A DNA stretch of 64,000 nucleotides from Chitinophaga pollutisoli (GTDB lineage Bacteria > Bacteroidota > Bacteroidia > Chitinophagales > Chitinophagaceae). Below are positions 3,722 through 46,229 of the stretch, piece after piece (within the stretch, counting starts at the first letter, position 1; every line of letters begins with the position of its first letter). Where the stretch lies: assembly GCF_038396755.1 (NCBI RefSeq), contig NZ_CP149822.1:3658001-3722000 (forward strand), given 5' to 3'. Below the pieces are notes generated by a model, which worked only from the letters and a program-made list of their open reading frames with translations, was not told the DNA's origin and did not search any database. The translations under genes were made by a program, and so were the position numbers.

Positions 3722-3747
3722 GAAAGGCCTTCATACGAAGGCCTTTC
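3722..3747 (-). terminator. Hairpin after the cytochrome c gene
   Basis: Eleven-base perfect arms (GAAAGGCCTTC and its complement) with a four-base ATAC loop. It lies at the 3' end of the cytochrome c gene and overlaps the out-of-frame stop at 3731. The T-run is weak on either strand, so it may act more as an mRNA-end hairpin. Confidence 0.55.
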
Positions 3748-4324
3748 TGCTAAAAATACTGCGGTACCGGGGGAAGTTCTTAACGGGTTTTGTTTGTTTC
3801 AGATAACTGAATATGGCATTGAGATCTTCATCGGTCATTTGCGTATAGTTTGTCCAGGGCATTGGGGGAAGCAGTGTGCGGCCTTTTTCAGCTCCTTTCA
3901 GTTTACCATGCCGCATGGCGGTTTTAAAATTCTCAGGAGTCCAGTTGCCGATGCCGCTTACATCGCTGGTGATATTTAAAGCGAAACTAATACCCCATGG
4001 CCCTGCGGCGGCCGTCATATCTTCATTGAACTGCGCGATACCTTTTTTAGCCAGCGCTGTGTCAAAGGCCGCAAGGGGGCGGCTGGAAGGGTAGCCGGAA
4101 AGTTGTGTCTCCGGAATCACTTCAGGCCCCATTTTACCCATCCGCTTGGGAGAATGGCAATCATTACATCCCCCGATGGTGACCAGGTATGCTCCCCGAT
4201 TTACCAGGGCGGCGGAATCTGAAGCCACTCCGCCGGGGGGGTCATTATTAACTGAATTGCAGGAAAAAAGCAACGCTATTAAAGAGCACGCTGCAAATGC
4301 TGAAGCCGGGATTAATCTGTTCAT
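3731..4324 (-). CDS. Cytochrome c lipoprotein (3' end probably frameshifted)
   Basis: Monohaem c-type cytochrome, probably periplasmic and lipid-anchored: lipobox LIALLFSC followed by a linker, then GAYLVTIGGCNDCHSPK with the CxxCH haem site, and a downstream LLPPMPWTNYTQMTDEDLNA segment supplying a likely axial Met. It resembles the small electron-transfer cytochromes of Bacteroidota. The start at 4324 is preferred; ATG 4336 would add four residues. The last codons as written read KNFPRYRSIFSRKAFV and run into the hairpin. Adding one base to the G5 run at 3769-3773 (+ strand) gives KNFPPVPQYF and a stop at 3750, just before the hairpin, which fits the family's Pro-rich ending better. Confidence 0.8.
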   Translation of the reverse strand: MNRLIPASAFAACSLIALLFSCNSVNNDPPGGVASDSAALVNRGAYLVTIGGCNDCHSPKRMGKMGPEVIPETQLSGYPSSRPLAAFDTALAKKGIAQFNEDMTAAAGPWGISFALNITSDVSGIGNWTPENFKTAMRHGKLKGAEKGRTLLPPMPWTNYTQMTDEDLNAIFSYLKQTKPVKNFPRYRSIFSRKAFV

Positions 4325-4449
4325 ATTTGTTTCCACGTTATTTGATGCGCAAAATTATTTCATTACAAACTTAGCCGCAGGAGGAGGATGACGGAGTCGT
4401 AAGTTGTGGCGCGCCAACCGTGGAAATCTGTGCTTAAATGGGAACGGTG

Positions 4450-5229
4450 CTATTTGCCAATCCAGTCTTTGAAAGCTGATACCTTTTCCCTGCTTACAAT
4501 GGAATCTTTGTCAAAAGCGGGGACAAGATCCAGGTGCAGCCTGTTTCCCGGGAAGTTCTCTATTGTTTTGACGGATTTTATGGATACTAACGTTGAGCGG
4601 TTGATCCTGTAGAAATCAGCCGGATCCAGCATTTCTTCCTGCAGTTCTTCCAGCGTATAATCAGTTATATACTTACTGTTGGTGAAAGTTTTGAAAAATG
4701 TGATCCTGCCTTCCCGGAAGAAATAAGCGATGTCTTCCGTTTGTATGCTTACCAGCTTATTCCCGGATTTTACGAGGAACCGTTTGCGATATTGATGTTT
4801 GTCAAGGTTCTCCCGAAGGTCATTCAGCAACCGGGCAACGTTCACATTGGGCGAGGTTCGACTGGCATAATGTGCCTGAAGGGTTTTGTGCTTGTTTAAT
4901 GCCTGTGCCAGTCTTTCGGGTTCTACAGGCTTCAGGAGGTAGTCCAGACTGTTCACTTCAAACGCCCGCAGCATGTACTGGTCGTATGAAGTAGTGAAGA
5001 TAACCGGACTGTTCACTGTAACCTGGTTGAAGATCTCGAAGCACTGCCCGTCTGCCAGCTCAATATCCATAAATATCAATTCCGGCGCGGGATGTGCTTT
5101 CAGCCAGTCTACGCTTTCTGATATGCTCCGGAGCGTGGCAATAATTTCAATGTTATTGTCTGTCCCGGCAATCATTTTTATCAGTCTTTTAATTGCGAGA
5201 TTTTCATCTTCAATGATTATCACTTTCAT
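4450..5229 (-). CDS. LytTR-family response regulator
   Basis: 259 residues. Receiver domain (1-120): acidic pair EDEN at the N-terminus, phospho-acceptor Asp in FMDIELADG, conserved Thr/Ser region VIFTTSYDQYMLRAF, and Lys in YLLKPVEPERL. Then a LytTR DNA-binding domain from about 155 to the end (KSGNKLVSIQTEDIAYFFRE, DFYRINRSTLVSIKSVK). Such proteins bind direct repeats upstream of target genes. It overlaps the sensor kinase gene by 20 bases, so the two are translationally coupled. Targets are not evident; the surface lipoprotein gene at 6508 is divergent to the kinase and is a reasonable guess only. Confidence 0.93.
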   Translation of the reverse strand: MKVIIIEDENLAIKRLIKMIAGTDNNIEIIATLRSISESVDWLKAHPAPELIFMDIELADGQCFEIFNQVTVNSPVIFTTSYDQYMLRAFEVNSLDYLLKPVEPERLAQALNKHKTLQAHYASRTSPNVNVARLLNDLRENLDKHQYRKRFLVKSGNKLVSIQTEDIAYFFREGRITFFKTFTNSKYITDYTLEELQEEMLDPADFYRINRSTLVSIKSVKTIENFPGNRLHLDLVPAFDKDSIVSREKVSAFKDWIGK

Positions 5230-6295
5230 AAGTAGCGGGATTAATCAGGGGAAGCGTTACGGTAAAGTATTGGTCGCCCGGCGCTATGGCAACACTGCGT
5301 TGAGACAGTAGCTGGTATTTGCGTTGAATGTTCTTTAGCCCTATTTTGTTAGACTGTACGGAAACTGATTTCGCCTGCTGGTTATTACGGACAACCAACT
5401 CTTCGTTATCGTTGGTATATACCTGGATAATAAGGGGATTGGATTCCATAATTACGTTATGCTTCACCGCATTTTCGACCAGCATCTGCAGCGTGAAAGG
5501 CGGGATCTGGTAGTTCCTGTATTGATCAGGAATGTCAATATCCAGTTGGATGGCGGATTCATACCTTGTTTTAAGCAAATAATAGTAAGACTTCAGAAAC
5601 GCGGCTTCCACATGTATGGCGGTAAGCTCATGTTCGTTGTTCTGTAGCAGGTAGCGGTATACCTTGCACATTTCATATAAAAATTCTTCTGCTTTCTGCT
5701 GGTCTTCGGAAATGAGGGCGGATAATGAATTCAGGGAGTTGAACAGGAAATGAGGATTCACCTGTGATTTCAGATTGTCCAGCTCACTTTGCAGGGAGGC
5801 CTTCTTTGACTTCTCGGCTTCAATGAGCGATGCTTTCCATTTCTTTAACAGGTAAGTGCCTTCGAATACAGCGGTGGCAATAATATTCAATACTATACCA
5901 GCTAAAGATATGCTACCGAATTTTTCAGGCATATACGGCCGCCCTGCCGCACTGCAACACATCACCAGAATAAGATAGTTTATGAAAATGGTAATGGGTA
6001 TAAAGATGGCCAGGGTTACCAATACACGCGGGCTTGTCTGGTTTACTTCAGGGAAAAAGCTCCGGATAATGTACCCTGCTTTTGAATGTATAAACCAGGA
6101 TGCGGGCCAAACGCCCAATAGGATGGCTGTGGTTGTAAGGAAAACGCCCGGATCGGTCACATACTCCTTCCCCCAGATGAGCATTGCAATGATAAAGTAA
6201 TAAGGCAACACGATAAATAGTACGCTTACGTCATAACGGGTAAGCCTGTTGCCACGCAGTGCATTGGTCAGACTGAAAACGGTTTGTTTTGCCAT
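5210..6295 (-). CDS. LytS/YehU-type membrane sensor histidine kinase
   Basis: 361 residues: an N-terminal membrane block of about four helices (roughly 25-160), a short coiled linker (EAEKSKKASLQSELDNLKSQ), then the His_kinase domain with phospho-accepting His in NPHFLFNSLNSLSALI and the N-box LVENAVKHN. The G-box is short (GLKNIQRKYQLL), as usual for this kinase class. It forms a two-component system with the overlapping LytTR regulator at 4450-5229. The membrane domain is not a named sensor, so the signal is unknown. Codon use is AT-richer than in the genes beyond 8.7 kb. Confidence 0.92.
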   Translation of the reverse strand: MAKQTVFSLTNALRGNRLTRYDVSVLFIVLPYYFIIAMLIWGKEYVTDPGVFLTTTAILLGVWPASWFIHSKAGYIIRSFFPEVNQTSPRVLVTLAIFIPITIFINYLILVMCCSAAGRPYMPEKFGSISLAGIVLNIIATAVFEGTYLLKKWKASLIEAEKSKKASLQSELDNLKSQVNPHFLFNSLNSLSALISEDQQKAEEFLYEMCKVYRYLLQNNEHELTAIHVEAAFLKSYYYLLKTRYESAIQLDIDIPDQYRNYQIPPFTLQMLVENAVKHNVIMESNPLIIQVYTNDNEELVVRNNQQAKSVSVQSNKIGLKNIQRKYQLLSQRSVAIAPGDQYFTVTLPLINPATYESDNH

Positions 6296-6507
6296 GTCAC
6301 GGCAAAAATAGGGAAAAGAAGATAGTTTGTAACCTCTTCCTCTTGTAAGGCTGGCACTGCGCCGATGGTAAATACAATGCCGGCAGTGTTTTTTACAATT
6401 CAGGCATCGGGAGTTACGATTCGCGCATCAACCAAATTTCACCTGTCCGCCTTTTATTTTCCTTTGCATCCAGTATTTACCCCGAAACAAACACAAGCAC
6501 GCATTTT

Positions 6508-7778
6508 ATGAAGCTAATTCATTCATTCCTTTTATTGACATTCATCTCATTGTTCATGGCCTGTAAAAAGTCGCCGGCTGAAATTGAGGACCAGGTTATC
6601 AAACCGGTTAGAAGAAACGCCGGCGGCATAGTGGGACCGGCCGTAACCAAAACCATTGGCACCGGTGGCGGTACATTGCAGGCAAACGGTGTGCAACTGG
6701 TCATCCCGGCGGGAGCTGTCAGCACACCCGTCAATTTCAGCATTCAACCCATTGAAAACACATTAACCGGATCATCCCGTAACGCATTCAGACTACTGCC
6801 GGAGCATATTCAATTCAAAAAGCCGGTAATAGTAGTATTCAGGTACGAGGCATCGGAAACCGCCGGCACCGCTCCTGACCTGCTGCACCTGGCATACCAG
6901 GATTCGACCGGCTTCTTCCGGATGGTCATGGATACGGAAAGGGATGAGGCTGCACGTACGCTTACGGCACATACCACCCATTTTAGTGACTGGACTTATG
7001 TTGAATCCCTAAAAGTAGAAACGGATCGCAGTGAGTTAATAGTTGGTGAGCAGGCGCATTTAAAGCTGATGTATCATGAAATATTGCTTAACTCGCTGGA
7101 AAAAGATCCGCCGATTGGAGCGTATGTAGCATACAATATCCGGTCGCAGATACCGCGCATACAATGGAAAATGGGCGCGGGCGCAGGGAAACTGAAGCCG
7201 GATGGTATCAATTGCTTGTATACCGCTCCCACCGCACTGACTGCCGTAAACCCGGAGCTGGTGAGTGTTTACGTTCCCGTCTGGAATACGGCGAAGAAAG
7301 ATTACAGCAGGCAGGCCATCCTGACCGTTCCCCTGACTATTATGGAAGACGAATTCCTGGTCTATACAATGGATGGCATCGTCTACAAAAACAAATCAGC
7401 TGATTGCACTACTGATGAATGTCTCAAAATGGAAGCGGATAACTTTTACATCAATGCGGAAATGAGCGGAGGTCAGTTTATCCTGATCCGGTTGTTGGGA
7501 GTTTCTTTCGGGCAACGCTCCTACCCTTACGGACTGGATGACGATCAAAGCTATATGCACATTGGAGGAACGGAGGAATGGGACTGGGTTACCAGCAAAA
7601 CGCCCTGTCCAACCTGCGAATTACAACATTCTTCCGGGGGGTAACCATTACGCGGTACGATGCAGTTGGAGGTTATGTGGAGGGTAAATTTACCGCTGAG
7701 GTATGGTACCAGGATGGTAGTTACAACCCTCCAAAGAAAGAAATATCCGGCCAGTTCAGGATAAAAAGGAAATTATAA
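6508..7778 (+). CDS. Surface lipoprotein with ZU5-like region (frameshifted)
   Basis: Lipobox LISLFMACKK at the N-terminus, then GGTLQANGVQLVIPAGAVS, the opening strand pair of ZU5-like modules found in Bacteroidota outer-surface proteins, followed by beta-rich sequence. As written, translation stops at 7644 after CELQHSSGG. A second frame immediately continues with VTITRYDAVGGYVEGKFTAE and ISGQFRIKRKL, a common C-terminal strand pattern in these lipoproteins. Adding one G to the G6 run at 7636-7641 joins both parts into a 423-residue protein. No enzyme motif; role unknown. It is divergent from the sensor kinase gene. Confidence 0.7.
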
Positions 7779-7807
7779 GCTGTCTGTTTCTACACCGGAT
7801 GGGAATG

Positions 7808-7835
7808 AGGAAGGTACGGTCAACCGTACCTTCCT
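7808..7835 (+). terminator. Hairpin after the surface lipoprotein gene
   Basis: Thirteen-base arms (AGGAAGGTACGGT and complement) with a two-base loop, 30 bases after the restored stop at 7778. No clear T-run follows, so it is a terminator-like hairpin between convergent genes. Confidence 0.5.
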
Positions 7836-7880
7836 GCATTAAAGCTTGATAATTAACGCCGTTAGCGCACTGTCGTGCAA

Positions 7881-8336
7881 TTATTTCTTTTTCGGCGGCG
7901 GCATTTTGGGAGGCTGCTGCTCGTATTGGTACATCAGGTTGATCTTGACATCTTTATCCAACCTCCATATTTCATGCAGTTCTTTAGTTGATTTCCGTCC
8001 TTTGGCATCTGTTGAAATCTCACGGGTCCATATTAATACCCATTCCTCATTATGATTCCTGCTCCTGAGCGGTACCCAGGCCTGCACAGAATCAACCACC
8101 GTGCCCATTTGCCGCCTCACCTTGGTAGCCATCAGGATTAGACTGTCCCGGTTCCCGGTAAACATAGAACCATCGGAAAAGATCATGGTGTCTGTTTCTG
8201 CGAAATAGTCCTTTGAATTGTTCATGGTGTTGTTATCCCAGTTCTTGTACATGTTGAGGAGCGTCATTGCGTTCTTGGGATCGCCGATTTCAAAATTGGA
8301 AGAGTAATCCGGGGTGAAGGGATAATTAACGACCTC
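7881..8336 (-). pseudogene. NTF2-like (SnoaL-type) protein gene with in-frame stop near its 5' end
   Basis: The frame from 8336 to 7881 encodes EVVNYPFTPDYSSNFEIGDP, then a nuclear-transport-factor-2-like fold (ADNN-type helix NMYKNWDNN, strands DTMIFSDGSMFTG, SVQAWVPLRS, EWVLIWTREI, LHEIWRLDKD) and a Lys/Pro-rich tail. The homologous region begins before the first internal ATG at 8267. Upstream in the same frame there is a hydrophobic, signal-like leader (ATG at 8390 or 8393; CKAVFFIITFFVYFLK), but a TAG at 8337-8339 separates it from the domain. No single-base addition in the nearby short runs repairs this. It is either a nonsense mutant or a gene started internally at 8267 with a clipped fold. 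Confidence 0.5.
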
Positions 8337-8565
8337 CTATTTTAGGAAATAAACAAAGAATGTTATGATGAAGAAGACAGCTTTGCACATCATTTCCAGC
8401 GCCGATGAGGAAGAACAGCGGTATTGCAGTATTGCAGAACCTTTGCTTTTTGAAATGCTAAAGCAGGTATTTAAAAAGCAAGTTTGTAAATGTTGTTCAT
8501 TTCAGATGAATTGTTAACCTCCGTAAAGATCATTGAAAATTAAAGGGAACTCGACTAAAAACAGA

Positions 8566-8588
8566 AAACCCGCGCAATGCGCGGGTTT
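8566..8588 (-). terminator. Rho-independent terminator of tRNA-Asp
   Basis: Ten-base arms AAACCCGCGC/GCGCGGGTTT with a three-base loop, 13 bases downstream of the tRNA 3' end on the minus strand, followed there by a T-rich stretch (TTCTGTTTTT). Confidence 0.8.
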
Positions 8589-8601
8589 CTGAGATGATTT
8601 G

Positions 8602-8675
8602 CGGACCGGACGGGACTCGAACCCGCGACCTCCGCCGTGACAGGGCGGCATTCTAACCGACTGAACTACCGATCC
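8602..8675 (-). tRNA. tRNA-Asp (anticodon GTC)
   Basis: 74-nt cloverleaf on the minus strand: acceptor arms GGATCGG/CCGGTCC, D-arm GTTCAGTCGGTTAGAAT, anticodon loop CTGTCAC with GTC, T-arm GCGGGTTCGAGTCCCGT and discriminator G. The 3' CCA is not encoded. GUC is a queuosine-type anticodon, and the gene for the synthetase that glutamylates queuosine in this tRNA starts 65 bases away on the opposite strand. Confidence 0.96.
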
Positions 8676-8740
8676 ATTTCCGTTAACCGGGTTGCAAATA
8701 TAGCGACAAGTCTTGTAAATTTACAAATCAAATTTATTTC

Positions 8741-9652
8741 ATGCCGGAAATCGACCATTCCCCCGCTGCCCAGGTCCCCCGCCTGACCCGCCTGGCCCCC
8801 ACACCCAGCGGATTCCTGCACGCCGGGAACCTCCTGTCGTTCGCCGCCACTTACGCACTCAGCCTCCACCTCAACCTGGAAATACTGCTCCGGATCGATG
8901 ATCTCGACCGCGACCGCCTCCGCCCGGAATACCTCGCCGATATCTTCGCCACCCTCGAATACATGGATATCCCCTGGCACCATGGCCCCCGAAACCCGGA
9001 TGAGTTCTCCACACAGTGGTCCCAGACCCTCCGCATCGAACACTACAACTCCCTTCTTAACGCCCTCCGCGACGGCGGCCACCTCTTCGCCTGCGATTGT
9101 TCCAGGACCCAACTGCTGAATGGCGCCTATCCCGGCACCTGCCGCCACAAAAACATCCCGCTTAGCCAGCCGGGCGTTGCCTGGCGCCTCAAAACAGATC
9201 CCGGCTCCCGCATCGGCATACGCTCTCCCGGTCCCGCAACCCCGCCCATGCCACTGCCGCCCTCGATGTACGACTTCGTGGTACGCAAGAAAAACGGCGA
9301 TCCCGCGTATCAACTGGCCTCCGTGGCCGATGATCTCCACTTCGGTGTCACCCACGTGGTGCGCGGGGAAGACCTGCTGCCATCCACGCTCGGACAACTG
9401 TACCTGGCATCACTGCTGCCGTTCAACACTTTTCCGGAAACCGTTTTCTGGCACCATCCGCTGCTGGAAGGCCCCTCGGGCCATAAACTCTCCAAATCCG
9501 CCGGCGACACCTCCATTCGCCACATGCGCGCGCAAGGCCTCTCGCCCGCCGATATCTGCACCGCCACCGCCCGCATGGCCGATCCCCTTGCCGCACCCCA
9601 AAATGCCCGGGAACTGGGCGATTGGTTGCTGCAACGCCAGGGCATCATATAG
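8741..9652 (+). CDS. gluQ: Glutamyl-Q tRNA(Asp) synthetase
   Basis: 303 residues, the usual length for GluQ-RS: a catalytic class Ic domain like glutamyl-tRNA synthetase without the anticodon-binding domain. Motifs: APTPSGFLHAGNLLSF (HIGH-type signature as HAGN), RIDDLDRDR, the zinc site CDC...YPGTC (residues about 120-135), and HKLSKSAG near 250 (KMSKS-type). The enzyme transfers glutamate to the queuosine base at the wobble position of tRNA-Asp(GUC), not to the 3' end. The gene lies divergently next to the tRNA-Asp gene. Strong GC-rich codon bias begins here compared with the preceding 5 kb. Confidence 0.93.
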   Translation: MPEIDHSPAAQVPRLTRLAPTPSGFLHAGNLLSFAATYALSLHLNLEILLRIDDLDRDRLRPEYLADIFATLEYMDIPWHHGPRNPDEFSTQWSQTLRIEHYNSLLNALRDGGHLFACDCSRTQLLNGAYPGTCRHKNIPLSQPGVAWRLKTDPGSRIGIRSPGPATPPMPLPPSMYDFVVRKKNGDPAYQLASVADDLHFGVTHVVRGEDLLPSTLGQLYLASLLPFNTFPETVFWHHPLLEGPSGHKLSKSAGDTSIRHMRAQGLSPADICTATARMADPLAAPQNARELGDWLLQRQGII

Positions 9653-10271
9653 TTATTTCACGGGCTCCCGGAGAATCGTTTTCAGCTTTTCCTGCGGCGT
9701 CTTCCGGAAATCGGAAAGGTAGATTTCATGGTGTAACCCGTTATGGGATAGCTTTTGCTCCACCATAAATTCATGCATGACCTCCAGCGTTTCCCCCTCA
9801 CGGCTGAACGGCCCCTTATGCAGCATCTGCACGGATTTGCCTTCGTGCATGTCGAACACCACTACTTGATCCGCATGCGGAACCCCTTTTTACCGCCGCT
9901 GCCACGCCTGCAGAGATATCTTCATCCGTCACGAAATCAGGAAGGCGGATGAGCAGCCGGTACGACCATTCACTGCGGGGTACTTTCGCCGGTGCGTCTG
10001 CCATACTGAGCCCCGGAAACGCCTGCATGTCGAACCACCACTGACCCTCCAGTTTGGCCACGGTGAAGTCGTTGCCGCGCTCCTTGCACCGGAACTTGAT
10101 CGCATAGGCCACTGGATATAAAGCCGCTACATGGGCGGCAAATGCCTCGGCCGAAGGGTCGCCGGTGCCCGTAACCGACAGGTATCTTGCCGGTCCGATA
10201 TCCACAATTTCCGGTCGGGTGGAGGCATGGTAATAGGTTTTGTACTTTTTAGTGAGGTCCAGTTTTTCCAT
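9653..10271 (-). CDS. GyrI-like small-molecule-binding protein (frameshifted)
   Basis: The start at 10271 gives MEKLDLTKKYKTYYHASTRP, the normal opening of Bacteroidota GyrI-like (effector-binding-fold) proteins, then VDIGPARYLSVTGTGDPSAE, KFRCKERGNDFTVAKLEGQW and YRLLIRLPDFV. The frame then degrades after GVAAAVKRG. Another frame continues HADQVVVFDMHEGKSVQMLH and KGPFSREGETLEVMHEFM, the canonical second half (HxGPF followed by a Glu-rich helix). The break is at CCCCTTTTT (+ strand 9883-9891) and needs two added bases or one removed base. Restored length is about 205 residues. The family binds diverse small ligands; none is known here. Confidence 0.78.
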
Positions 10272-10377
10272 CAGGTTGAATTTTTGCTGCAAGTAAATTT
10301 CCCGGACTGACAACATTATGTCAGTAGCATCCATTATTTATTTTTATTAACTTTCAACATCACTAAAATAGCATCCT

Positions 10378-10713: not shown

Positions 10714-10732
10714 CGCATCGCTTGCATACAGG

Positions 10733-10759
10733 AAAGGTCTGCTCCGGCAGGCCTTTTTT
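10733..10759 (+). terminator. Rho-independent terminator of the DUF1508 gene
   Basis: Arms AAAGGTCTGC/GCAGGCCTTT (one G-U pair), loop TCCG, followed by TTT. It begins 20 bases after the stop codon. Confidence 0.85.
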
Positions 10760-10872
10760 ATTATCACCCCACCATTTTCTCGCCGGGAAAAGTTATATTT
10801 ATTTACGTTTTAATACCCCCGGCCTGCCGCCAGGCCATTATCCCTGACATCTTTAACCTCAAACTTTTCCTC

Positions 10873-11262
10873 ATGGAAAAAGATATTACTATCGAACTCG
10901 TGCGCCGTATCACAGGCGAAGAATTTCCGGCTGAGCTGGAGGCATTCGAATCCAACGCGGAAGATTGTTATGATAGGATTTCAAATGGAGAACAGCCGGA
11001 AGACTTGTTTGCCGACAATGGCGCCATGAATGAATTCTCCTGGGAAGGCGTGGAGCAGGGTGTGCAATCGATCAGCGTGCTCGCCGGAACTGTGCTCACT
11101 TTCCTCAGCGTCCGGAAGGAATGGAAGTCGTCCCGATCTCAAAAGTATGCATCCCTCAAAGATACCTGGCAGCTCGATCTCATCAAGAGCGGCGTGGCGC
11201 CTGAAGTGGCGGCCATAATTGTAGAGAAATACCAGGAAGACCTTAAAAACCTGTTGAAGTGA
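10873..11262 (+). CDS. Hypothetical protein, first gene of an unassigned operon
   Basis: 129 residues, not recognised as a named family. The N-terminal half is acidic and predicted helical (ITGEEFPAELEAFESNAEDC). A hydrophobic segment SISVLAGTVLTFLSVRK at about 70-86 could be a single membrane helix or a buried amphipathic helix. The C-terminal half is a charged helical region (LIKSGVAPEVAAIIVEKYQE). Its stop codon overlaps the GTG start of the next gene (GTGA), so the two are translationally coupled. The third gene follows with an ATGA overlap, giving a tight three-gene unit at 10873-12822. Function unknown. Confidence 0.6.
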   Translation: MEKDITIELVRRITGEEFPAELEAFESNAEDCYDRISNGEQPEDLFADNGAMNEFSWEGVEQGVQSISVLAGTVLTFLSVRKEWKSSRSQKYASLKDTWQLDLIKSGVAPEVAAIIVEKYQEDLKNLLK

Positions 11263-12274
11263 ACGCGGCTTTGCTGCCGGAGTACTCAATCCGGTCGGCG
11301 GAAAGCGCTGTCAACGCGGAAAAGATCCGGCGATCGGTGTTCCGGCTGACGCGCGTCTATCTCTGGCTTTTCATTATCGCCGTGGTGGTCATCAACCTGC
11401 AGTACTTTTTCATGGGTCCGGAGTCAGCAGAATATGACGATTTTCTGTACCCGGGATACAGCCTTGGGAGATCTTTCCAGGCGGAAGTAATGCACCTCAT
11501 GTACATCAACAGCATTTTGGGGATGGCGGGATCCATCGGTACGGCGATGTTACTGTTCGCTTCCATCAAAGAAGGGATGGGGAAGTTTGAATCGGATGTG
11601 AATGCGGGCCGTGTCACGGAGATGCAGCCGGAGCAGGGCGTTTCCATTAGGGAGATGACGGAGGCGCTGGCTACAGACATGGGCATCCTTCCCGAAAACC
11701 GCATACGTTTCTGGAAAACCCTCAGCAAAGCGCGCTATCCGTCTGTCCAGCAGCTGGGCGGGGGAGATGTGAACATCGTTGTCCCTGTGAATTATTTCCT
11801 GTTCCACCAAAAACATCCCGAGCGTTCAAAGGCAATCCTGGCGCATGAGCTGGGACATGTGCTGCAGGGTGATACGGACCTGTACCTGCTTTCGGAGAAA
11901 TTTTACACGGTAGTGCGTCTGGTGGTTGTGCCGATGCTGCTGTTGACGCTGATATCTGTTTTAGTGATGCTGGCGATGAGCGGCGGGCCGCAGGGGGGAT
12001 TGTCCCGGTGATCACAAGCGCCTTGTCGGTCATCGTACCGGTGTTCTTCATTATTTTTTACCTGGGTCAATATGGCCGCATCAGAACGCTGCGCAGCGAA
12101 TCGGAGCACCTCGCAGACATGTGTGCCTTCATCTATGCGGAAGGGGATGCTTTGCGGCAGGTGTTGGAGGGATTGGAGGCGCCCGCCCGGAGAAGCAACA
12201 TCGTACATCCGCCTCGCCAGGAGCGGATCGATTACATTCAACAATTGGAGAAATCCCAAATACCTTCTTCATGA
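11259..12274 (+). CDS. Membrane M48-type (HtpX/Ste24-like) metallopeptidase, frameshifted
   Basis: The start is the GTG overlapping the upstream stop. Two N-terminal membrane helices (LWLFIIAVVVINLQYFFMG; ILGMAGSIGTAMLLFASI) and a cytosolic region precede AILAHELGHVLQGD, the HExxH zinc site. Two more helices follow, then ESEHLADMCAF, which supplies the third zinc ligand (ExxxAD type). Helices between HExxH and the Glu ligand are the HtpX/Ste24 topology. As written the frame stops at 12011 (GGPQGGLSR). Adding one G to the G6 run at 11993-11998 yields PQGGIVPVITSALSVIVPVF and a 338-residue enzyme. The substrate is unknown; partnership with the flanking small proteins is inferred from the overlaps. 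Confidence 0.75.
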
Positions 12275-13108: not shown

Positions 13109-13116
13109 AAAGCTTG

Positions 13117-16505: not shown

Positions 16506-17119
16506 TTACACGATCGCCCGAACTTCCCAGCCCTGGCGCTTGCAGTGCTCCAGGATGCGCGGCAAGGCGTAGCTCATCCGGTCCCAGGCTTTCTCACTGT
16601 CATGGAAAACCACGATGGATCCGGGTTGCAGCTTGAAAACCACGTTCTGCACACAGGCCTCGCCCGTGATCTCCGTGTCGAAATCCCCGCTCAATACGTC
16701 CCACATGATAATCCGGTAATCCTTCTTCAATTCGCGGATCTGGAACGGCGAAATTCGACCGTACGGCGGCCGGAATAAATTGGAACGGATGTACTGCGCC
16801 GCTTCGCGGATATTGCTGATATACTTGTCCGTAGCCGTTTTCCAGCCGTTGAGATGGTTGTGGGTATGATTACCCACCGCATGCCCGTCGCGCAATATCT
16901 GCTGATAGATGTCCGGATGCGCCACCACGTTTTTGCCAATACAAAAAAAGTCGCCTTCGCGTCATATTTCTTGAGCGTTTCCAGCACGAAAGTCGTGGCT
17001 TTGGGATGTGGCCCGTCGTCGAACGTGAGGTAAACAGCCGGTACGGCGGGCGTGAAATTCCAGGTGCAGCTTTTGTAGAGCGACTTCAGAAAGCCGGGTG
17101 TTTTCGTAAAATAGAACAT
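16506..17119 (-). CDS. Polysaccharide deacetylase (NodB-type), frameshifted
   Basis: Carbohydrate esterase family 4 enzyme, removing N-acetyl groups from peptidoglycan or polysaccharide. The 5' part reads [20 protein letters not shown] (catalytic Asp pair) up to KYDAKATFF. The 3' part, in another frame, reads [20 protein letters not shown] with the HTHNH metal site, [17 protein letters not shown] and [11 protein letters not shown]. Adding one base to the A7 run at 16943-16949 (T7 in the coding sense) gives [15 protein letters not shown], the expected motif 1-2 junction, and a 204-residue protein. There is no clear signal peptide. It is divergent from gltX with 55 bases between the starts. Confidence 0.85.
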
Positions 17120-20526: not shown

Positions 20527-20596
20527 ATATAATTGAAAACACGCTTTTGCCGCACTTTCGGGGAAAATACTACATTTACAATCCAATATTCGAATT

Positions 20597-36056: not shown

Positions 36057-37219
36057 TTACAGGTTATATATTGCGTGCAATTCGCGCACGGTTTGATTGA
36101 CTGTCTCAATGGCACGGTCCACTTCCGCTTCGGTGGTAAACCGTCCCAATCCGAATCTGAGCGAAGAATGTGCCAGATCTTCGGGGACGCCCATGGCCAG
36201 GAGCACATGGCTCGGTTCGGGATTGGCGGAAGTGCATGCCGAACCCGAAGATACGGCTATTTCCCGGGTTACCCCGCGCAGGAGGTCCGCCCCCTTGACA
36301 TCCCGGAACCGCAGGTTGCTGACGTGTGGCAGCCTGGGAGCGCCCCCGCCGTTGACGATGGCGCCCGTTTGGGCGATAATGCCGATTTCCAGCCGGTCAC
36401 GGAGGCTCGCCAGCCGGGAAGCTTCGCCTGCCATTTCGGCGGACGCGATGGCGCAGGCCTTGCCAAGGCCTACGATACCCGGCACATTCAGGGTGCCGGA
36501 GCGCATCCCGCGCTCATGGCCGCCGCCGTCCAGCTGGGCTGCCAGCCTTACCCGGGGGATCTGCGGCGCACGAACAGCGCGCCTGCGCCTTTAGGGCCAT
36601 ACAGTTTGTGGGCCGAAAGCGCCAGCATCCCGATGGCTTCCTTTCCCGCATCCAGCGGAATTTTTCCCGCGGCCTGCGTGGCGTCGGTGAGCAGGAGAAT
36701 GTCATGGTCCGCCGCTACTTTGGCAATCTCCGCTATCGGCTGAATCACGCCCGTTTCATTGTTGGCGTACATCACCGCCGTTAGTATGGTATCCGGACGG
36801 ATGGCGGCCTGCAGATCATCCGGGCTCACGAGTCCGCGGCCGTCCACCGGCAGATAGGTAACGCTGGCCCCCATTTTCTCCAGGTGAAGGCAGGTATCGA
36901 GCACGGCTTTATGCTCCGTTTGCACGGTGATGAGGTGTTTCCCTTTTACAGCGTAGGCCTCGAAAGCTCCTTTCAGCGCGAGGTTGAGGGATTCGGTGGC
37001 GCCGGAGGTGAACACGATCTCCTGGGGTTCCGCGCCGATCATCGCCGCTACTTCTTCCCGCGCCTGCTGCACCGCTTCTTCGGCCGCCCAGCCCCAGGCA
37101 TGCGCGCGCGAAGCGGCATTGCCGAACTGGTGGGTGAAGTAAGGCATCATGGCTTCCAGCACCCGCGGATCGCAGGGCGTGGTGGCGTTGTTGTCAAGGT
37201 AAACGGGCAGTGTCTGCAT
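36057..37219 (-). CDS. iscS: Cysteine desulfurase (IscS/NifS family), frameshifted
   Basis: PLP enzyme delivering sulfur from cysteine for Fe-S clusters and thiolated tRNAs. N-terminal part: VYLDNNATTPCDPRVLEAMM, FTSGATESLNLALKG, QTEHKAVLDTC, and the PLP lysine region LSAHKLYGPKGAGALFVRR. The frame then stops (RSPG). Another frame continues RSGTLNVPGIVGLGKACAIA and the catalytic Cys loop VSSGSACTSANPEPSHVLLA. Adding one base to the G5 run at 36554-36558 gives RRRSPRVRLAAQLDGGGHER and joins both into 387 residues, exactly the family form. Both catalytic parts are intact, so an assembly error is far likelier than real loss. Confidence 0.9.
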
Positions 37220-38536: not shown

Positions 38537-38540
38537 AAAA

Positions 38541-38563: not shown

Positions 38564-38584
38564 GTATTGGATTTAGTATTCACT

Positions 38585-39856
38585 TCAATTCACGACTTTT
38601 TCCATTCCCACGCTGCGCGAACCTTTTACGAGAAAATGGGTGTCCTCGTACCGTTGCTGCGCCAGCCATTCCTTCGCTTCGTCCGCGGTTTCGAACGAGA
38701 TATAGGGGTGCTGGGTTTTGGAGAATTCCTTGCCCACCAGTACCACGGCTTTCCAATGGTGCAGCTGGAGCAGATCTGCGAGTGCCTGGTGTTCCTTCTC
38801 GCTGTCGGGCCCCATTTCTTTCATGGCGCCGAGCAACAGCACTTTCTGCTTCGCGTCGAGCGTGGCGAAGTTTTCCACGGCGGCTTTCATGCTGGACGGG
38901 TTGGCGTTGTAAGCGTCCATCACGAAGGTATTGGTGCCCTTGCGCATTACCTGCGATCGGTTGTTGGAGGGCACATATGCTTCCAGCGCGGCGCGCAGCT
39001 TATCGGCCGGCACTTTGAAATGCAGCCCCGCGGCAATCGCCGCCATCACATTCGGGAAATTGTAGGCGCCCACGAGATGGGTGCGTACATGTCCCGCTTC
39101 CACGGCTTCCAGCTCCAGGAGGGCGGTCCCGGGGAAGGGAGCGCCGGCGTAATCGGCCGGTTCGTGCCCGTAAGTGATCACGGTGCCGATGCCTTTACTC
39201 ATTTCCACGAGGTAATCATAATCCTTGCAAACGAACACCGTGCCGCCATTTTCGCGAAGGTAATCGTACAGCTCGCCCTTGGCCAGGCGCACCCCTTCTT
39301 CGCTGCCGAACCCTTCCAGGTGGGCCTTTCCGATGTTGGTGATGAGCCCGTGCGTGGGCAACGCCACGGTACAGTATCCCGCGATCTCATGGCGGTGGTT
39401 GGCGCCCATTTCGATCACGGCCATTTCCGCGTCCAAAGGAATCCGGAGGATGGTCAGCGGCACGCCGATATGGTTGTTCAGGTTGCCTTCGGTGGCGTAT
39501 GTACGAAAAGCCGCTCCCAGCGCGGCGCGGAGCATTTCTTTCGTGGTGGTCTTCCCGTTAGTGCCGGTAATGGCAATGAACGGAATGTTGAACTGCCGGC
39601 GGTGATGGCGCGCCAGGTCCTGCAGGGCCGCCAATGCATCTTCGACCAGCATCATTTTTTCCGGCTGCGTATGAAACGCCGGATCGTCGACCACTGCGAA
39701 GCTGGCCCCGGCTTCCAGGGCCGCGGCGGCGTATTGGTTGCCGTTGAAGTTGGGCCCGCGCAGGGCGAAGAAGATATCGCCCGGCCGGAGCTGGCGGGTG
39801 TCCGTTTGTACGGAGGGGTGTAGGCGGTAGATGCTGTATAGTTGTTCGATGTTCAC
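38585..39856 (-). CDS. murF: UDP-MurNAc-tripeptide--D-alanyl-D-alanine ligase
   Basis: 423 residues. Adds D-Ala-D-Ala to the UDP-MurNAc-tripeptide in the cytoplasm. N-terminal UDP-binding domain (SVQTDTRQLRPGDIFFALRG), central ATPase (IPFIAITGTNGKTTTKEML, AVIEMGANHRHEIAGYC, TNIGKAHLEGFGSEEGV) and C-terminal domain (MDAYNANPSSMKAAVENFA, KVLLLGAMKEMGPDSEKEH). All ligase motifs are intact, so this is the likely main MurF; the fused MurF-Alr at 29568 is a second copy of the ligase domain. Monocistronic on the minus strand. Confidence 0.94.
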   Translation of the reverse strand: MNIEQLYSIYRLHPSVQTDTRQLRPGDIFFALRGPNFNGNQYAAAALEAGASFAVVDDPAFHTQPEKMMLVEDALAALQDLARHHRRQFNIPFIAITGTNGKTTTKEMLRAALGAAFRTYATEGNLNNHIGVPLTILRIPLDAEMAVIEMGANHRHEIAGYCTVALPTHGLITNIGKAHLEGFGSEEGVRLAKGELYDYLRENGGTVFVCKDYDYLVEMSKGIGTVITYGHEPADYAGAPFPGTALLELEAVEAGHVRTHLVGAYNFPNVMAAIAAGLHFKVPADKLRAALEAYVPSNNRSQVMRKGTNTFVMDAYNANPSSMKAAVENFATLDAKQKVLLLGAMKEMGPDSEKEHQALADLLQLHHWKAVVLVGKEFSKTQHPYISFETADEAKEWLAQQRYEDTHFLVKGSRSVGMEKVVN

Positions 39857-39974
39857 GTCTTCGGTATTTGCTCACAAAAATAAGGAATGAAGGCCCTCAT
39901 TTTCTTTATTATCTTTCGCAGGCAACCTATCCCGACCTTATATCGTACAGAAAACTATGCAAACCCATATCACC

Positions 39975-40358
39975 ATGCCCAGGCGCAAAACACTTTTCCG
40001 GATCTGGCCGGTTTTACTGGCCGGCTGCTTCCTATCCGCCTGTACCTCCGAACAGGCCCCGGAGCCTTCCGCCAGTGCGGATTGTGCTTCCGTTAACGTA
40101 ACAACCACCCGGATCTACGAGATCGTGCAGCAAAACTGCACCAACCGCAACTGCCATCCCGGCGGCAGCTCGCCCTTGATTTCCGATTTCTCCACGCCGG
40201 CGAAGCTGAAGAACTACATTTCAGCCAACGGCGAAAACTGGATGTTCAGGGTTACGCACAGCAATGCCGACATGCCCCAGAGCCAGGGCTACCCCGCGCT
40301 CTCCAGGGCCGTCCGCGATTCGATCGCCTGCTGGGTTAACAAGGGAATGCCGGATTGA
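39975..40358 (+). CDS. Lipoprotein with cytochrome-c-like CX4CH motif
   Basis: About 127 residues; ATG 39975 gives MPRRKTLFRIWPVLLAGCFL with lipobox LSAC (ATG 39957 adds six residues). The body reads IYEIVQQNCTNRNCHPGG: Cys, four residues, then CysHis, which is a rare CX4CH haem-attachment spacing in place of CxxCH. It is followed by SNADMPQSQGYPALSRAVRD, where Met and the proline loop resemble the axial-Met region of small cytochromes. A structural role without haem is also possible. It begins a cluster with YceI and DUF5777 genes. Confidence 0.6.
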   Translation: MPRRKTLFRIWPVLLAGCFLSACTSEQAPEPSASADCASVNVTTTRIYEIVQQNCTNRNCHPGGSSPLISDFSTPAKLKNYISANGENWMFRVTHSNADMPQSQGYPALSRAVRDSIACWVNKGMPD

Positions 40359-40377
40359 TTCATCAAACACCCGCCAC

Positions 40378-40929
40378 ATGCAACGTATCTTCATCATCAC
40401 CGTTTTTCTCGCCTGCGCCGCAACTGCCCTGGGGCAAGACGTGCGATCGTGCCGCAACGTACGCCTGCGCTTCTTTTCCAGCGCCCCGCTGGAAGATATC
40501 GAGGCCACCACCAACAAAGGCGTCTCCGCCATCAATCCCGCCTCCCGCGCCATTTACTTCAAAGTGCCGGTAAACACTTTCCAGTTCAAAAAGAAGCTGA
40601 TGCAGGAACACTTCAACGAAAATTACCTGGAAAGCGATAAATACCCGTACGCCGAGTTTAAAGGCAAAATCCTCGGCGACGCCGACCTCACCAAAGATGG
40701 CAGCTACCCCGTGGAAACGGAAGGCGACCTGCTCATCCACGGCGTATCCAAAAACTACCGCGTAGCCGGGACTATCACCGTTTCCGGCGGCAAAATGTCC
40801 GCCGAAGCGAAGTTCAATGTGCGCGTAGCTGATCATCACATCAAAATACCCAGCCTGGTGGTAAAAAATATCGCGGAAGTAGTGGAAGTGACCATGACCG
40901 CCGAATACCAGGCCGCAACCCAACCTTGA
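40378..40929 (+). CDS. YceI-family periplasmic protein
   Basis: 183 residues from the ATG at 40378. Signal peptide IFIITVFLACAATALG, then the YceI lipocalin-like barrel: LRFFSSAPLEDIEATTNKGV, YFKVPVNTFQFKKKLMQEHF, NENYLESDKYPYAEFKGKI and GDLLIHGVSKNYRVAGTITV. The family binds polyisoprenoid or amide lipids. It is 19 bases after the cytochrome-like lipoprotein gene and 1 base before the DUF5777 gene, so these form an operon. Confidence 0.92.
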   Translation: MQRIFIITVFLACAATALGQDVRSCRNVRLRFFSSAPLEDIEATTNKGVSAINPASRAIYFKVPVNTFQFKKKLMQEHFNENYLESDKYPYAEFKGKILGDADLTKDGSYPVETEGDLLIHGVSKNYRVAGTITVSGGKMSAEAKFNVRVADHHIKIPSLVVKNIAEVVEVTMTAEYQAATQP

Positions 40930-40930
40930 C

Positions 40931-41886
40931 ATGAAAAAGACCATCAAACCAGCGCATATGTTGCATCTCCGCCTGCTCACCGCCTTGCTGCTCACGGCCC
41001 CCGCGGCCATGGCGCAGGAAGACCTGGGGGCTATTTTCGGGAAGGACTCCGTCCGCCGCGACCCTGTGACTTCCACCTTCAAAAGCACCCGCATTATCAA
41101 CGGCCAGTCTAACGAAACCCTGGCCAAACGCGACCTCGACTTCCGCGTAGCGCACCGATTCGGGGATATGGGCGGCTCCGGAGGCGGATCGTCGACTTTT
41201 TCGGGCTCGACAACTCCACCGACATCCGCATCGCCTTTGAATACGGCATTACCAACCGGCTGACGGCCGGGGTGAGCCGGGCCAAAGGCAGCGGCAATTT
41301 CTCCCAGATGTGGGAAGTGCTGGGCAAATACCGGCTGCTGCAACAAACGCACGACAACCGGTCGCCCGTGGCGGTGACGCTGTTTGCCAATGCGGTGGCT
41401 TCGTCCATGAAAAGTAGTCCGGATAAGGCGGACCCCAATTATTTCGATCAATTCTCCGACCGGGTGAGCTACGTGGCCCAGGCGGTGATTGCGCGGAAGT
41501 TCGGCAATGCTTTCAGCCTGGCGCTGACGCCTTCGTTCGTACATCGCAACCGGGTGGGCTTCAAGGATATGAACAATATGTTTGCCATGGGCGTGGGCGG
41601 CAGGCTGCGTTTCAGCAACCGCGTGGCTTTTGTGGCGGATTATTTCTATTCGTTCCGGGATAGCGAAAGCAAGGATTATTACGCATCGCGCGGTACGAAG
41701 TTTTACAATTCCCTGGGCGTGGGGGTGGAGATTGAGACGGGCGGGCACGTGTTCCACCTGAATTTCACGAATGCCACGGCCATCCTGGAGAACCAGTTCA
41801 TCCCGGAAACCGTCAGCACCTGGACGCACGGGCAGTTCCGGTGGGGTTTCAACATCTCCCGGAGGTTCGCGCTGGGCGGCCGTTAA
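40931..41886 (+). CDS. DUF5777 outer-membrane beta-barrel protein, frameshifted
   Basis: Signal peptide region LLTALLLTAPAAMAQ, then TFKSTRIINGQSNETLAKRD and DFRVAHRFGDMGG, the DUF5777 opening. The frame stops at 41263. Adding one base to the T5 run at 41197-41201 gives STFFGLDNSTDIRIAFEYGI and continues through AGVSRAKGSGNFSQMWEVLG, VAVTLFANAVASSMKSSPDK to FRWGFNISRRFALGG, a 318-residue barrel. Such proteins are regularly found with YceI and cytochrome-like genes in Bacteroidota, as here. The transported or bound molecule is unknown. Confidence 0.82.
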
Positions 41887-41953
41887 TCGGTTAATGGGAA
41901 GTGAATAGGTACGATTGTGCTGTTTTTGGCATGAAAGCGGTTAAATTGCATGC

Positions 41954-42280
41954 ATGGCAACACTGAAATGCAGTATCCGTGAGTGTTCTATGGTAGCACG
42001 ATTGGCCGCCTGGAAGATGGGAAGTAACAACATCGCGATCGTTTTCGGGAGTGTGATCCACCTGCACGGGGTGTCGCGGGAGCAATTTTTGGGTAATACG
42101 GCCTGGGTGCGGCATGAGGTGCGGCACGTGAGGCAGTACCGGGAAGCGGGCTACTGGCGGTTCCTGTGGCGCTATGTGCGGGACTGGGCCCGCTATGGCT
42201 ATTATAACATTCCGTATGAGCAGGATGCCCGGCGGGCCGAGGGGAACGCCGGGGAGCTGGAAGGGGTCGAAATACGATAA
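41954..42280 (+). CDS. DUF4157-like protein with HExxH
   Basis: 108 residues. Contains AWVRHEVRHVRQYREAGYWR: the HEVRH zinc-peptidase-type motif followed by the RQYxxxG pattern of DUF4157-like domains, and then FLWRYVRDWARYGYYNIPYE-QDA, the conserved segment whose Glu/Asp would be the third ligand. Short free-standing versions are common in Chitinophaga-type genomes, and whether they are active proteases is not known. The first 20 residues are poorly supported; ATGs at 41990 or 42018 are alternatives. Confidence 0.65.
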   Translation: MATLKCSIRECSMVARLAAWKMGSNNIAIVFGSVIHLHGVSREQFLGNTAWVRHEVRHVRQYREAGYWRFLWRYVRDWARYGYYNIPYEQDARRAEGNAGELEGVEIR

Positions 42281-42363
42281 AGATTCGTTAAAACGCCAGG
42301 CCCCGGAGACAAAAATGTTACAACGCGGTTTTTTTCCTTATTTTTACGGTAAAGGCTGATTCT

Positions 42364-42750
42364 ATGGTTAAGAAGGTCACAGAGGGAATCACGATAAGCG
42401 TGGAGACGTTTTACCAGCCGGATTACTCCAATCCGATCGGCAGTGAGTTCATGTTCGCTTACCGTATCACTATCGAGAACAATAATACTTTCCCGATAAA
42501 ACTGTTGCGCCGCCATTGGTATATCATCGATTCCAACGGCTCGCACCGTGAGGTGGAAGGAGAGGGTGTAGTAGGTGTTCAACCGCTGCTGGCGCCGGGC
42601 GAAAGCTATCAGTATGTTTCCGGATCCAACCTCCGTACCGAAATCGGTAAGATGTACGGTACTTACCAGATGGAAAACCAACTGAACAAGAAACTCTTCG
42701 ATGTGAAGATTCCTGAGTTCCAGATGGTGGTTCCCTTTAAAATGAACTAA
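42364..42750 (+). CDS. apaG: ApaG family protein (Co2+/Mg2+ efflux-associated)
   Basis: 128 residues of the ApaG immunoglobulin-like fold: ITISVETFYQPDYSNPIGSE, FAYRITIENNNTFPIKLLRR, HWYIIDSNGSHREVEGEGVV and GVQPLLAPGESYQYVSGSNL are all signature. Role in bacteria is uncertain (cation efflux, pyrophosphate binding). Its last four bases overlap the end of the convergent gldB gene. Confidence 0.94.
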   Translation: MVKKVTEGITISVETFYQPDYSNPIGSEFMFAYRITIENNNTFPIKLLRRHWYIIDSNGSHREVEGEGVVGVQPLLAPGESYQYVSGSNLRTEIGKMYGTYQMENQLNKKLFDVKIPEFQMVVPFKMN

Positions 42751-43772
42751 GGCCTGTACCTGGCTCCGTTGAAGATGAGCATCGCGTCCTGCGTGTTCAT
42801 GAGTTTTTCCAATGTATAATCTTTGTGGCGCTCCATAAATGCCTGTACGATGTTGTACCCGGTATACGCGCCGATTTTCCCGGGTGCTTCTGCGGGCATC
42901 CCTTGCGTGGAGGGGCCTTCTCCGATATAACGCGCGATCGTTTGTCCTTCCCGGTTATACAGCAATTTATTCTCCACGAAATACTGCCAGATCATTTCCT
43001 CGTTTTCCTTACAGAATTTCAGTTGTGCCGGTGTGTAGCCGAGGCGAAGGTGTTCGTCCGTTTCGGGCAATACATGTTCCAGCCAGTATTGTTGCTTGCC
43101 GAGGTACACCATCTGTTCGGCCAGGGTGGCTTCTTCGCGGGGAGCGTCGAGTTGCTGGTAGAGGACGGTCATGGCGTTCACGGGGATGTTCTCCGGCGTG
43201 AAGCGCCGCACCATGTATTCCGGCAAATCGGGGATGAGCTTGTATACCGGGAAATCCGCACCCATGTACATATCCAGCCCGATTCCCAGGATGGTATCCA
43301 TGGTAATGGCGCCGTAGTTGTTGATGGCGGAAATGAACGTGAGCACCTGGGGAGCGTGGAATTTGGGCTGGTAATGCTTCGCGAGGCGGAAGGCCTGCTG
43401 CAGCTCCTTTTCGAGCGGGCTTTGGTCGGCGAAATGCTTTCCTACCGAATCGTTCAGGGAACGGATGTCCGGATTCGTGAGGAAGCTGCGCACCGCTGCG
43501 GTGAGGCCGGCGCTGTCTCCCGTATTGGGCAGGAAAAGAATATGCGAGAAATAATCGTTGGTGAATCCGGGGTACAATTCCTGCAACAATTTTACACCGC
43601 CGGCAACGTTAGTGGTATCGATACCGGCAAATGCCCTGTCGAACCGCTCGATTTTGACCGTGATGGGAATGTGACTGACGTCGGGGACGGGTTTTTTACG
43701 GCTACAACCCGCCATGGTGGCGGAAATGAAGATCAGGGTATACAGGATATATATTTTACGGTACTTTTGCAT
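42747..43772 (-). CDS. gldB: Gliding-motility lipoprotein GldB
   Basis: 341 residues. Lipobox FISATMAGCSRKK, then the GldB domain: VKIERFDRAFAGIDTTNVAG, LQELYPGFTNDYFSHILFLP, APQVLTFISAINNYGAITMD and LGIGLDMYMGADFPVYKLIP. GldB is needed for gliding and for the stability of the GldJ/GldK apparatus in Flavobacterium. Its neighbourhood (PorT-like barrel gene, then nadE, divergent) is the conserved Bacteroidota gldB context. The start at 43772 is 20 bases from the divergent barrel gene. Confidence 0.93.
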   Translation of the reverse strand: MQKYRKIYILYTLIFISATMAGCSRKKPVPDVSHIPITVKIERFDRAFAGIDTTNVAGGVKLLQELYPGFTNDYFSHILFLPNTGDSAGLTAAVRSFLTNPDIRSLNDSVGKHFADQSPLEKELQQAFRLAKHYQPKFHAPQVLTFISAINNYGAITMDTILGIGLDMYMGADFPVYKLIPDLPEYMVRRFTPENIPVNAMTVLYQQLDAPREEATLAEQMVYLGKQQYWLEHVLPETDEHLRLGYTPAQLKFCKENEEMIWQYFVENKLLYNREGQTIARYIGEGPSTQGMPAEAPGKIGAYTGYNIVQAFMERHKDYTLEKLMNTQDAMLIFNGARYRP

Positions 43773-43792
43773 CGCCTATAATAACTTTAGAA

Positions 43793-44518
43793 ATGGTAAA
43801 AATATTGCATCGGAGCGTATTCCGGAAATCCTTTATGATGGCCGCCATCTTGCTGGCGTCGGCCGCTTCCCTCTCCGCACAGTCTTTTAGCGAGCGTATG
43901 TCAGAAAAATCGGGCCGGAAGGTGCGTTTTGGTTTTAAGATCGATCCCGGGGCTTCGTTCCTCAATCCCCAGGAATCCGGCGTAACCCGCAACAGCGGCC
44001 GTTTTTATTTCAGCTACGGCGTGCTGGCGGATTGGTTTATCGATAATGAAGAGCGATATGCCGTGGCGTCTGGTGTCCAGGTTACCCATCTTGGCAGCGT
44101 GATGCAATACGAAGCCGGCAAAGGTCTCAACGGTTTTGCGACCACTTCCGCGGAATACGATCTGCGGCTGCAATATATCGAAGTGCCGGTGATGCTGAAG
44201 CTGCGGACCACCGCGGAGAAAGGTTTCGACTTTTACGGGCAGTTCGGCGGAATCGTGGGCATGCCCATCCGCGCACGCGCCAATGTAATCAGCAACATGC
44301 AGCGGTTCGAGAAACAAGGCGTGCTCCGGCAGATACAGCCGCTGACCGCCGGGATGCTCCTGGGCGCGGGGATCGAATATCCCCTCAGCGAAACCCTCAC
44401 CGGCGTGGTGGGCATCAATTACCAGAATAATTTCGTGGATATCACCCGCAACGGCAAATGGAACGATGGCCGGGTGACCGCCAACAGCTTCATTTTACGG
44501 CTCGGGATATATTTTTAA
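43793..44518 (+). CDS. PorT-like outer-membrane beta-barrel protein
   Basis: 241 residues. Signal peptide MMAAILLASAASLSAQ, then an eight-stranded barrel pattern: RFGFKIDPGASFLNPQESGV, FYFSYGVLADWFIDNEERYA, VASGVQVTHLGSVMQ, LQYIEVPVMLKLRTTA, FYGQFGGIVGMPIRA, and the ending NSFILRLGIYF. PorT/SprT is required for the type IX secretion system in relatives. This paralogue lies between gldB and nadE, where such barrels usually sit. Its direct role in secretion is inferred from context only. Confidence 0.8.
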   Translation: MVKILHRSVFRKSFMMAAILLASAASLSAQSFSERMSEKSGRKVRFGFKIDPGASFLNPQESGVTRNSGRFYFSYGVLADWFIDNEERYAVASGVQVTHLGSVMQYEAGKGLNGFATTSAEYDLRLQYIEVPVMLKLRTTAEKGFDFYGQFGGIVGMPIRARANVISNMQRFEKQGVLRQIQPLTAGMLLGAGIEYPLSETLTGVVGINYQNNFVDITRNGKWNDGRVTANSFILRLGIYF

Positions 44519-44532
44519 CCCTCTTTAGTCCG

Positions 44533-44540
44533 TACCTTTG
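44533..44540 (+). promoter_or_regulatory. -7 element upstream of nadE
   Basis: TACCTTTG, an exact TAnnTTTG match, 19 bases before the nadE start. No clear TTTG box at the expected distance. Confidence 0.45.
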
Positions 44541-44559
44541 CCAGACAAAAAAAGTACGG

Positions 44560-46229
44560 ATGAACATATTTCTCGCCCAGCAGAATTATCATATCGGCAA
44601 CTTCGAAGCCAATACGGCCCGGATCATCGAAGCGATCCACGCCGCAGAGGCCCGTGGGGCCGACCTGGTCGTGTTTTCCGAACTATGCGTGTGCGGTTAC
44701 CCGCCCCGGGATTTCCTGGAGTTTGAAGACTTCATCGCCCGGAGTTACGCCGCCATCGACGAAATCCGGAAGCATACGCAGAAAACCGCCGTACTGGTGG
44801 GAGGGCCGCAGCGCAATCCCCACCGCGAAGGGAAAGATCTCTTCAACGCCGCATTCTTCCTCTACGAAGGCGAAATCAAACAGGTGGTGCAGAAAACCCT
44901 GCTCCCCACCTACGATGTATTCGACGAATACCGGTATTTCGAACCGGCGTTCGAATGGAACGTCATCCCTTTTAAAGGAAAAAAGCTGGCAGTTACCATT
45001 TGTGAAGACATCTGGAACCTGGGCGACAACCCGCTGTACCGGATCTGTCCCATGGACCGCCTCATCCTCCAGGACCCGGATGTGATGATCAACCTGTCGG
45101 CCTCACCCTTCGATTACGACCACGACGAGAGCCGCCGCGAGATCATCCGGGAGAATGTGAAGAAGTACGGCCTGCCCATGTATTATTGCAATACCGTAGG
45201 CTCGCAAACGGAGATTGTGTTCGACGGAGGATCGATGGTCTTTGACGCGGAAGGGCAGATCGTGAAGCAATTATCGTTTTTCGAAGAAGATATGGCGGGC
45301 GTGGAGCTGGAAGCCCTCGGGAAGAAGAAACCCAATCCCAATGCGGTGATCGTCCCGAATTCGGTGATGGAGGAGCTGGTGTTCGACCATAACATTGAAC
45401 GCATCCGGCAGGCCATCGTGCTCAGCATCCGCGACTATTTCCATAAAATGGGTTTCAAGCAGGCTATCCTGGGTTCTTCCGGCGGGATCGACAGCGCTGT
45501 GACGCTGGCGCTGGCCGTGGAGGCCCTGGGCAAGGAGAACGTCCGCGCCATCCTCATGCCTTCGCCTTACAGCACGGAGCATTCGGTAGACGATGCCGTG
45601 GCCCTGTCGAAAAACCTGGAGAATCCTTACGACATCATCCGCATCAACGATATTTACGAAAGCTTTTTGCAGACGCTGGAGCCCCATTTCAAGGGGCTGC
45701 CTTTCAACGTGGCGGAGGAAAACACACAAAGCCGCATCCGGGGCAACCTGCTGATGGGGCTGTCGAACAAATTCGGGTACATATTGCTCAATACGAGCAA
45801 TAAAAGCGAGTTGTCGACCGGCTACGGTACGTTGTACGGCGATATGGCGGGGGGCTTTCAGTGCTGGGGGACCTCTACAAGATGCAGGTTTACGCCCTGG
45901 CGCGGCACATTAACCGCGAGCGGGAGATCATCCCGGTGAATATCATCGACAAAGCGCCTTCGGCGGAGTTGCGGCCCAACCAGAAAGATTCCGACAGTTT
46001 GCCGGAATATGCGATACTGGACCGCATCCTGTATCAGTATATTGAGCGGCGGCAAGGGCCGAAGGAGATTATCGCCCAGGGGTTCGACGCCGCGCTGGTA
46101 GCGCGCACGCTGAAGCTGGTGAATACCAACGAATACAAGCGGAACCAGTTTTGCCCGATCATCCGGGTGTCGTCCAAGGCCTTCGGGATTGGCAGGCGGG
46201 TGCCCATTGTAGGGAAATATTTGAGTTAA
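44560..46229 (+). CDS. nadE: Glutamine-dependent NAD+ synthetase, frameshifted
   Basis: Start at 44560 ([20 protein letters not shown]). N-terminal nitrilase-type glutaminase (Glu in [15 protein letters not shown], Lys, Cys in [13 protein letters not shown]) feeds ammonia to the C-terminal synthetase ([34 protein letters not shown]), which amidates nicotinate adenine dinucleotide. The frame breaks after [12 protein letters not shown]. Adding one G to the G6 run at 45849-45854 gives [20 protein letters not shown], then [20 protein letters not shown] to the stop at 46229, a 556-residue enzyme. This gene is normally essential, so a base-calling error is probable. Confidence 0.9.

Follow-up and report, generated by a model that had tools for sequence, protein, structure and literature searches.

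Nanopore insertions and deletions are described in the Homopolish study as falling mainly in homopolymers, surviving standard pipelines, shifting reading frames and inflating pseudogene counts (PMC8011154). That study benchmarked its assemblies against truth genomes, whereas the comparison made here is with relatives. In long-read assemblies, false deletions are reported to predominate and to be most frequent behind runs of four to five bases.

The window analyzed here is a stretch of 64,000 nucleotides, positions 3,658,001–3,722,000 of the single 6,078,843-base contig of Chitinophaga pollutisoli (genome G000, completeness 99.99%), a member of a genus of soil Bacteroidota. We take this genome to be that of strain GPA1T (KACC 23415 = JCM 36644), published as one circular chromosome of 6078 kb with a CheckM2 completeness of 99.99%, which was read in-house on a MinION and assembled with Flye 2.9.1 (PMC11316580); the words “Illumina” and “polish” are absent from the main text of that paper. 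MinION and Flye are also given there for C. caseinilytica KACC 19118T (6517 kb; PMC11316580), which is presumably our relative G044. The other relatives were G041, G042 (C. deserti), G040 (C. rhizosphaerae), G077 (apparently also C. deserti), G074 and the draft genome G006. Among the genome contigs scanned, the nadE gene of the window is nearest to those of Chitinophaga species, and megablast against plasmids gave zero matches.

Eight homopolymers had been listed in the initial annotation as the places where genes of the window break, and all eight were found in place; each coincides with a frame change relative to homologues that carry the gene in one frame. The full-length state of each gene was judged from intact relatives, with no sequence restored. 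At five of the runs (9883, 16943, 36554, 41197 and 45849) the frame switch appears against three or four syntenic relatives. These runs lie in a gene for a GyrI-like domain protein (9653..10334, minus strand, C4T5 run at 9883-9891, PF06445 on the intact relative), a polysaccharide deacetylase gene (16509..17119, minus strand, A7 run at 16943-16949, PF01522 on the intact relative), an IscS-type cysteine desulfurase gene (36057..37219, minus strand, G5 run at 36554-36558, PF00266 on both pieces), a gene for a DUF5777 beta-barrel protein (40958..41886, plus strand, T5 run at 41197-41201, PF19089 on the intact relative), which is overlapped by an ORF on the opposite strand, and nadE, encoding glutamine-dependent NAD+ synthase (44560..46229, plus strand, G6 run at 45849-45854). 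The switch at 36554 is supported by four relatives, and the window differs there by one base from G006. The run at 9883 had been singled out as needing either two bases added or one removed; nucleotide alignments place the window two bases short of four out of four relatives, so that the two-base loss stands and the opposite direction falls away.

The remaining three runs differ in what their homologues reveal. The G6 run at 7636-7641 lies in a gene for a ZU5-like protein (6508..7778, plus strand), whose PF00791 match is weak (20.8 bits, where the cut-off is 21) and whose intact homologues of about 423 residues are unbroken in G077, P0004 and P0005; this break is common to the window and the C. 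caseinilytica assembly. The G6 run at 11993-11998 lies in an M48-type peptidase gene (11259..12274, plus strand), and the break is called from two homologues, P0002 (strain E66, 68% identity) and the distant P0003 (34%; PF01435), each of which matches across two frames; among 60 genomes of the genus searched, the gene has a match in the window's own genome alone. The G5 run at 3769-3773 lies in a cytochrome c-like gene (3731..4336, minus strand, PF00034 match) and shows a one-base difference from G044 inside a block of 98% identity. G044 and G074 have a different C-terminal tail here and the protein length is not cut; accordingly, of the statement that eight genes are broken, the frame change at 3769 holds and truncation does not, the C-terminal tail alone being altered. 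A candidate ninth break near 20588 was rejected: the first ATG of its frame follows shortly downstream (20597), and the site was judged non-coding.

To place these breaks in a genome-wide context, 384 kb of G000 from four places was compared with four relatives, one target at a time, G042 lacking coverage of one place and G040 of two. Frame-switch places were located without reference to homopolymers, a break was counted as a frame-switch cluster supported by at least two relatives, and stretch length was taken as the kb covered twice. G000 contained 23 such clusters out of 37 in 294 kb (7.8 per 100 kb), the other 14 being backed by one relative and left unused. The MinION-sequenced sister G044 gave 17 of 48 clusters in 288 kb (5.9 per 100 kb), compared with 5 of 30 in 281 kb for G041 (1.8 per 100 kb), 1 of 13 in 148 kb for C. 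deserti G042 (0.7 per 100 kb) and 2 of 20 in 140 kb for C. rhizosphaerae G040 (1.4 per 100 kb). The breaks of G000, near 0.47-0.48, 3.34-3.39, 3.64-3.70, 4.35-4.40 and 5.29 Mb, are spread over the sampled parts of the genome and affect genes of any function, including those for a response regulator, the type IX secretion component PorV and a SelR-domain protein. At about 5.29 Mb a MutS-family gene (L223:8677-9992), whole in two relatives, is split over two frames. A break in gyrB, suspected from a shorter open frame, was dismissed when the relative's protein aligned in a single frame over all of its 659 residues.

Of the 23 breaks in G000, 13 have a run of at least five identical bases no more than 12 bases away, compared with 8.7% of random positions (binomial 8e-9). 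By the same measure the counts elsewhere were 8 of 17 in G044, 2 of 5 in G041, 0 of 1 in G042 and 0 of 2 in G040. Eight of the 23 clusters were dropped by hand after the run contexts had been seen, a filter that was not applied to the control genomes; since those received no hand filtering, the unfiltered counts are the like-for-like comparison. In the kept set of 15, a run of at least five is present within 12 bases at ten breaks and absent at five. For a G/C run of this length the figure is 5 of 15, which differs from the long-read assembly of Pss508, where A/T runs are reported to dominate. At many sites G000 has an unbroken run, one base short, where the aligned relatives have no single run; this picture would arise if a run that substitution had lengthened were undercalled, but also from real deletion of the interrupting base.

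The unfiltered 23 clusters comprise 17 losses of one base, 2 losses of two bases and 4 gains of one base, and nucleotide alignment assigns the two-base losses to 9883 and to one cluster left of the window. Among the kept breaks, nucleotide alignments give 15 of 15 as net losses, 9883 included, in agreement with the one-directional pattern first noticed from the eight runs. Five of the dropped clusters (22986, 24507, 27083, 33516 and 39824, in the L2 region) were discarded because the relative's ORF has no Pfam domain, and the first four of them lie on the opposite strand of ribosomal protein gene L2. Three others were removed for reasons of their own: 11394, where the alignments reveal no nearby gap; 51868, which is in the same gene as 52211 and has a messy end; and 112562 (window numbering, outside the window), which is near an N-terminus, although a Pfam domain is present in the protein of the relative. 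Four dropped clusters (22986, 24507, 33516 and 39824) carry one extra base in G000, that at 39824 against all four relatives, and the ORFs at these four were judged spurious.

Selection was then compared on the two sides of the breaks. Against G044, pN/pS at 12 of the 15 kept sites was 0.142 before the break and 0.129 after it (a G044 junction is lacking at 52211 and 1758, and 41197 was left out), compared with 0.150 in 182 intact genes. A cruder first count, in which two sites were counted repeatedly, 11394 was included and 41197 was scored on the opposite-strand ORF, gave 0.173 before and 0.162 after. Purifying selection thus acts on the sequence past the breaks as it does on intact genes, and there is no relaxation.

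We put at about 95% the probability that the eight breaks are errors in the consensus of an assembly made from nanopore reads alone. At runs of roughly four to seven identical bases, base-caller and assembler would together write one base too few, and at 9883 two too few; the missing bases would shift the printed reading frame, while in the cell itself the genes are most likely intact. Longer runs would accordingly be expected in accurate reads of the strain. The initial annotation had proposed undercalled homopolymers in a long-read assembly, and this is borne out as the best reading by the use of MinION and Flye, the genome-wide breaks, the net losses, the unchanged selection and the sole nadE copy.

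The alternative that survives best is that the frameshifts are real, as recent pseudogenes from homopolymer slippage in culture, perhaps in a mutator lineage. Slippage too favours homopolymers, but the whole genome contains just one match to nadE, and that copy is broken. NAD+ synthase is normally essential, and so the point that essential genes are hit carries weight for nadE. For iscS, named alongside it, the evidence is weaker because the genome has other cysteine-desulfurase-like genes with open frames. Real mutations are also at odds with the unrelaxed selection past the breaks and with the similar excess of breaks in the other MinION genome, G044. Of the mismatch-repair genes, mutS has a main open frame of 873, the same length as in two relatives.

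The break at 7636 speaks for real mutation, as it occurs in two assemblies and inside a 98% identical block resembling a recent exchange. The corresponding gene is, however, intact in P0004, which lies on a separate contig of 25,698 bases and is identical to both G044 pieces (378 of 378 and 46 of 46 residues). Because this identical protein is intact on another contig, the G044 assembly most likely errs at 7636, and the GPA1T assembly probably errs at this run too, although a strain polymorphism is a possible explanation of the difference between P0004 and G044. Overall, we consider real mutation at the eight sites very unlikely. The block itself (window 3177-8344) shares 98% identity with C. 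caseinilytica G044, compared with 79-84% for the neighbouring aligned stretches, which suggests from alignment a recent exchange between C. pollutisoli and C. caseinilytica; no aligned counterpart was found in the C. rhizosphaerae stretch examined.

In a mixed version of this alternative, some short-run frameshifts, especially that at 7636, would be real, and slippage at short G/C runs would still yield full-length protein and so keep the genes under selection; we regard this as highly improbable. Phase variation, in which genes are switched on and off by differences in run length within the population, would likewise place breaks at homopolymers, and three affected genes of the sample are outer-membrane-related (those for DUF5777, PorV and an OMP_b-brl protein). 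Against it, the runs are short (4 to 7), metabolic genes are hit too (nadE and the IscS-type gene) and at several sites an unbroken run of this kind is missing from the aligned relatives, making contingency loci hardly credible. Programmed frameshifting or transcriptional slippage, by which a full-length protein would be read from two frames, would account for both gene pieces being still under selection but has a negligible chance of being correct, because relatives have these genes in a single frame, so that the shift is not conserved, and, of the eight, 7636 is the one seen shared, with a genome sequenced alike (G044).

Taken as consensus errors, the breaks still do not reflect uniform shortening of every run. 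G/C runs of at least seven number 7 in 384 kb of G000, compared with 0 in 460, 1 in 440, 2 in 180 and 1 in 240 kb of the relatives; as such runs are no rarer in G000, undercalling is partial and long runs are not uniformly lost. A/T runs of at least eight number 12 in 384 kb of G000 and 11 in 460 kb of G044, against 32 in 440, 18 in 180 and 15 in 240 kb in the others, in genomes that differ in base composition. In paired A/T runs of at least six, G000 is the shorter against two relatives (14:1 and 6:1) and not against two others (2:2 and 5:4).

Annotation counts also complicate the simple picture. Table 1 of the GPA1T paper leaves 39 genes of this strain that are neither coding nor RNA (5197-5080-78), and the same remainder is 34 for KACC 19118T, 2 for C. 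rhizosphaerae and 7 for C. deserti (PMC11316580). By extrapolation from the 15 kept breaks in 294 kb, a non-random sample, about 300 genes of the type-strain genome may be printed broken despite its CheckM2 value of 99.99%; the annotated 39 is well below this, while the direction of the difference from the two drafts agrees. Many split genes may have been entered as pairs of separate genes by the annotation pipeline.

The feature is most probably an ordinary artefact that serves as a data-quality warning and says nothing new about biology. Gene losses or pseudogenes called from the GPA1T, KACC 19118T or E66 assemblies are not trustworthy without better reads. In the complete genome of Chitinophaga sp. 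E66 (CP079103), whose gene models look unreliable, an 80 kb stretch contains zero G/C runs of at least six, and 52 of its 70 frame-switch clusters are multi-supported at slightly different thresholds.
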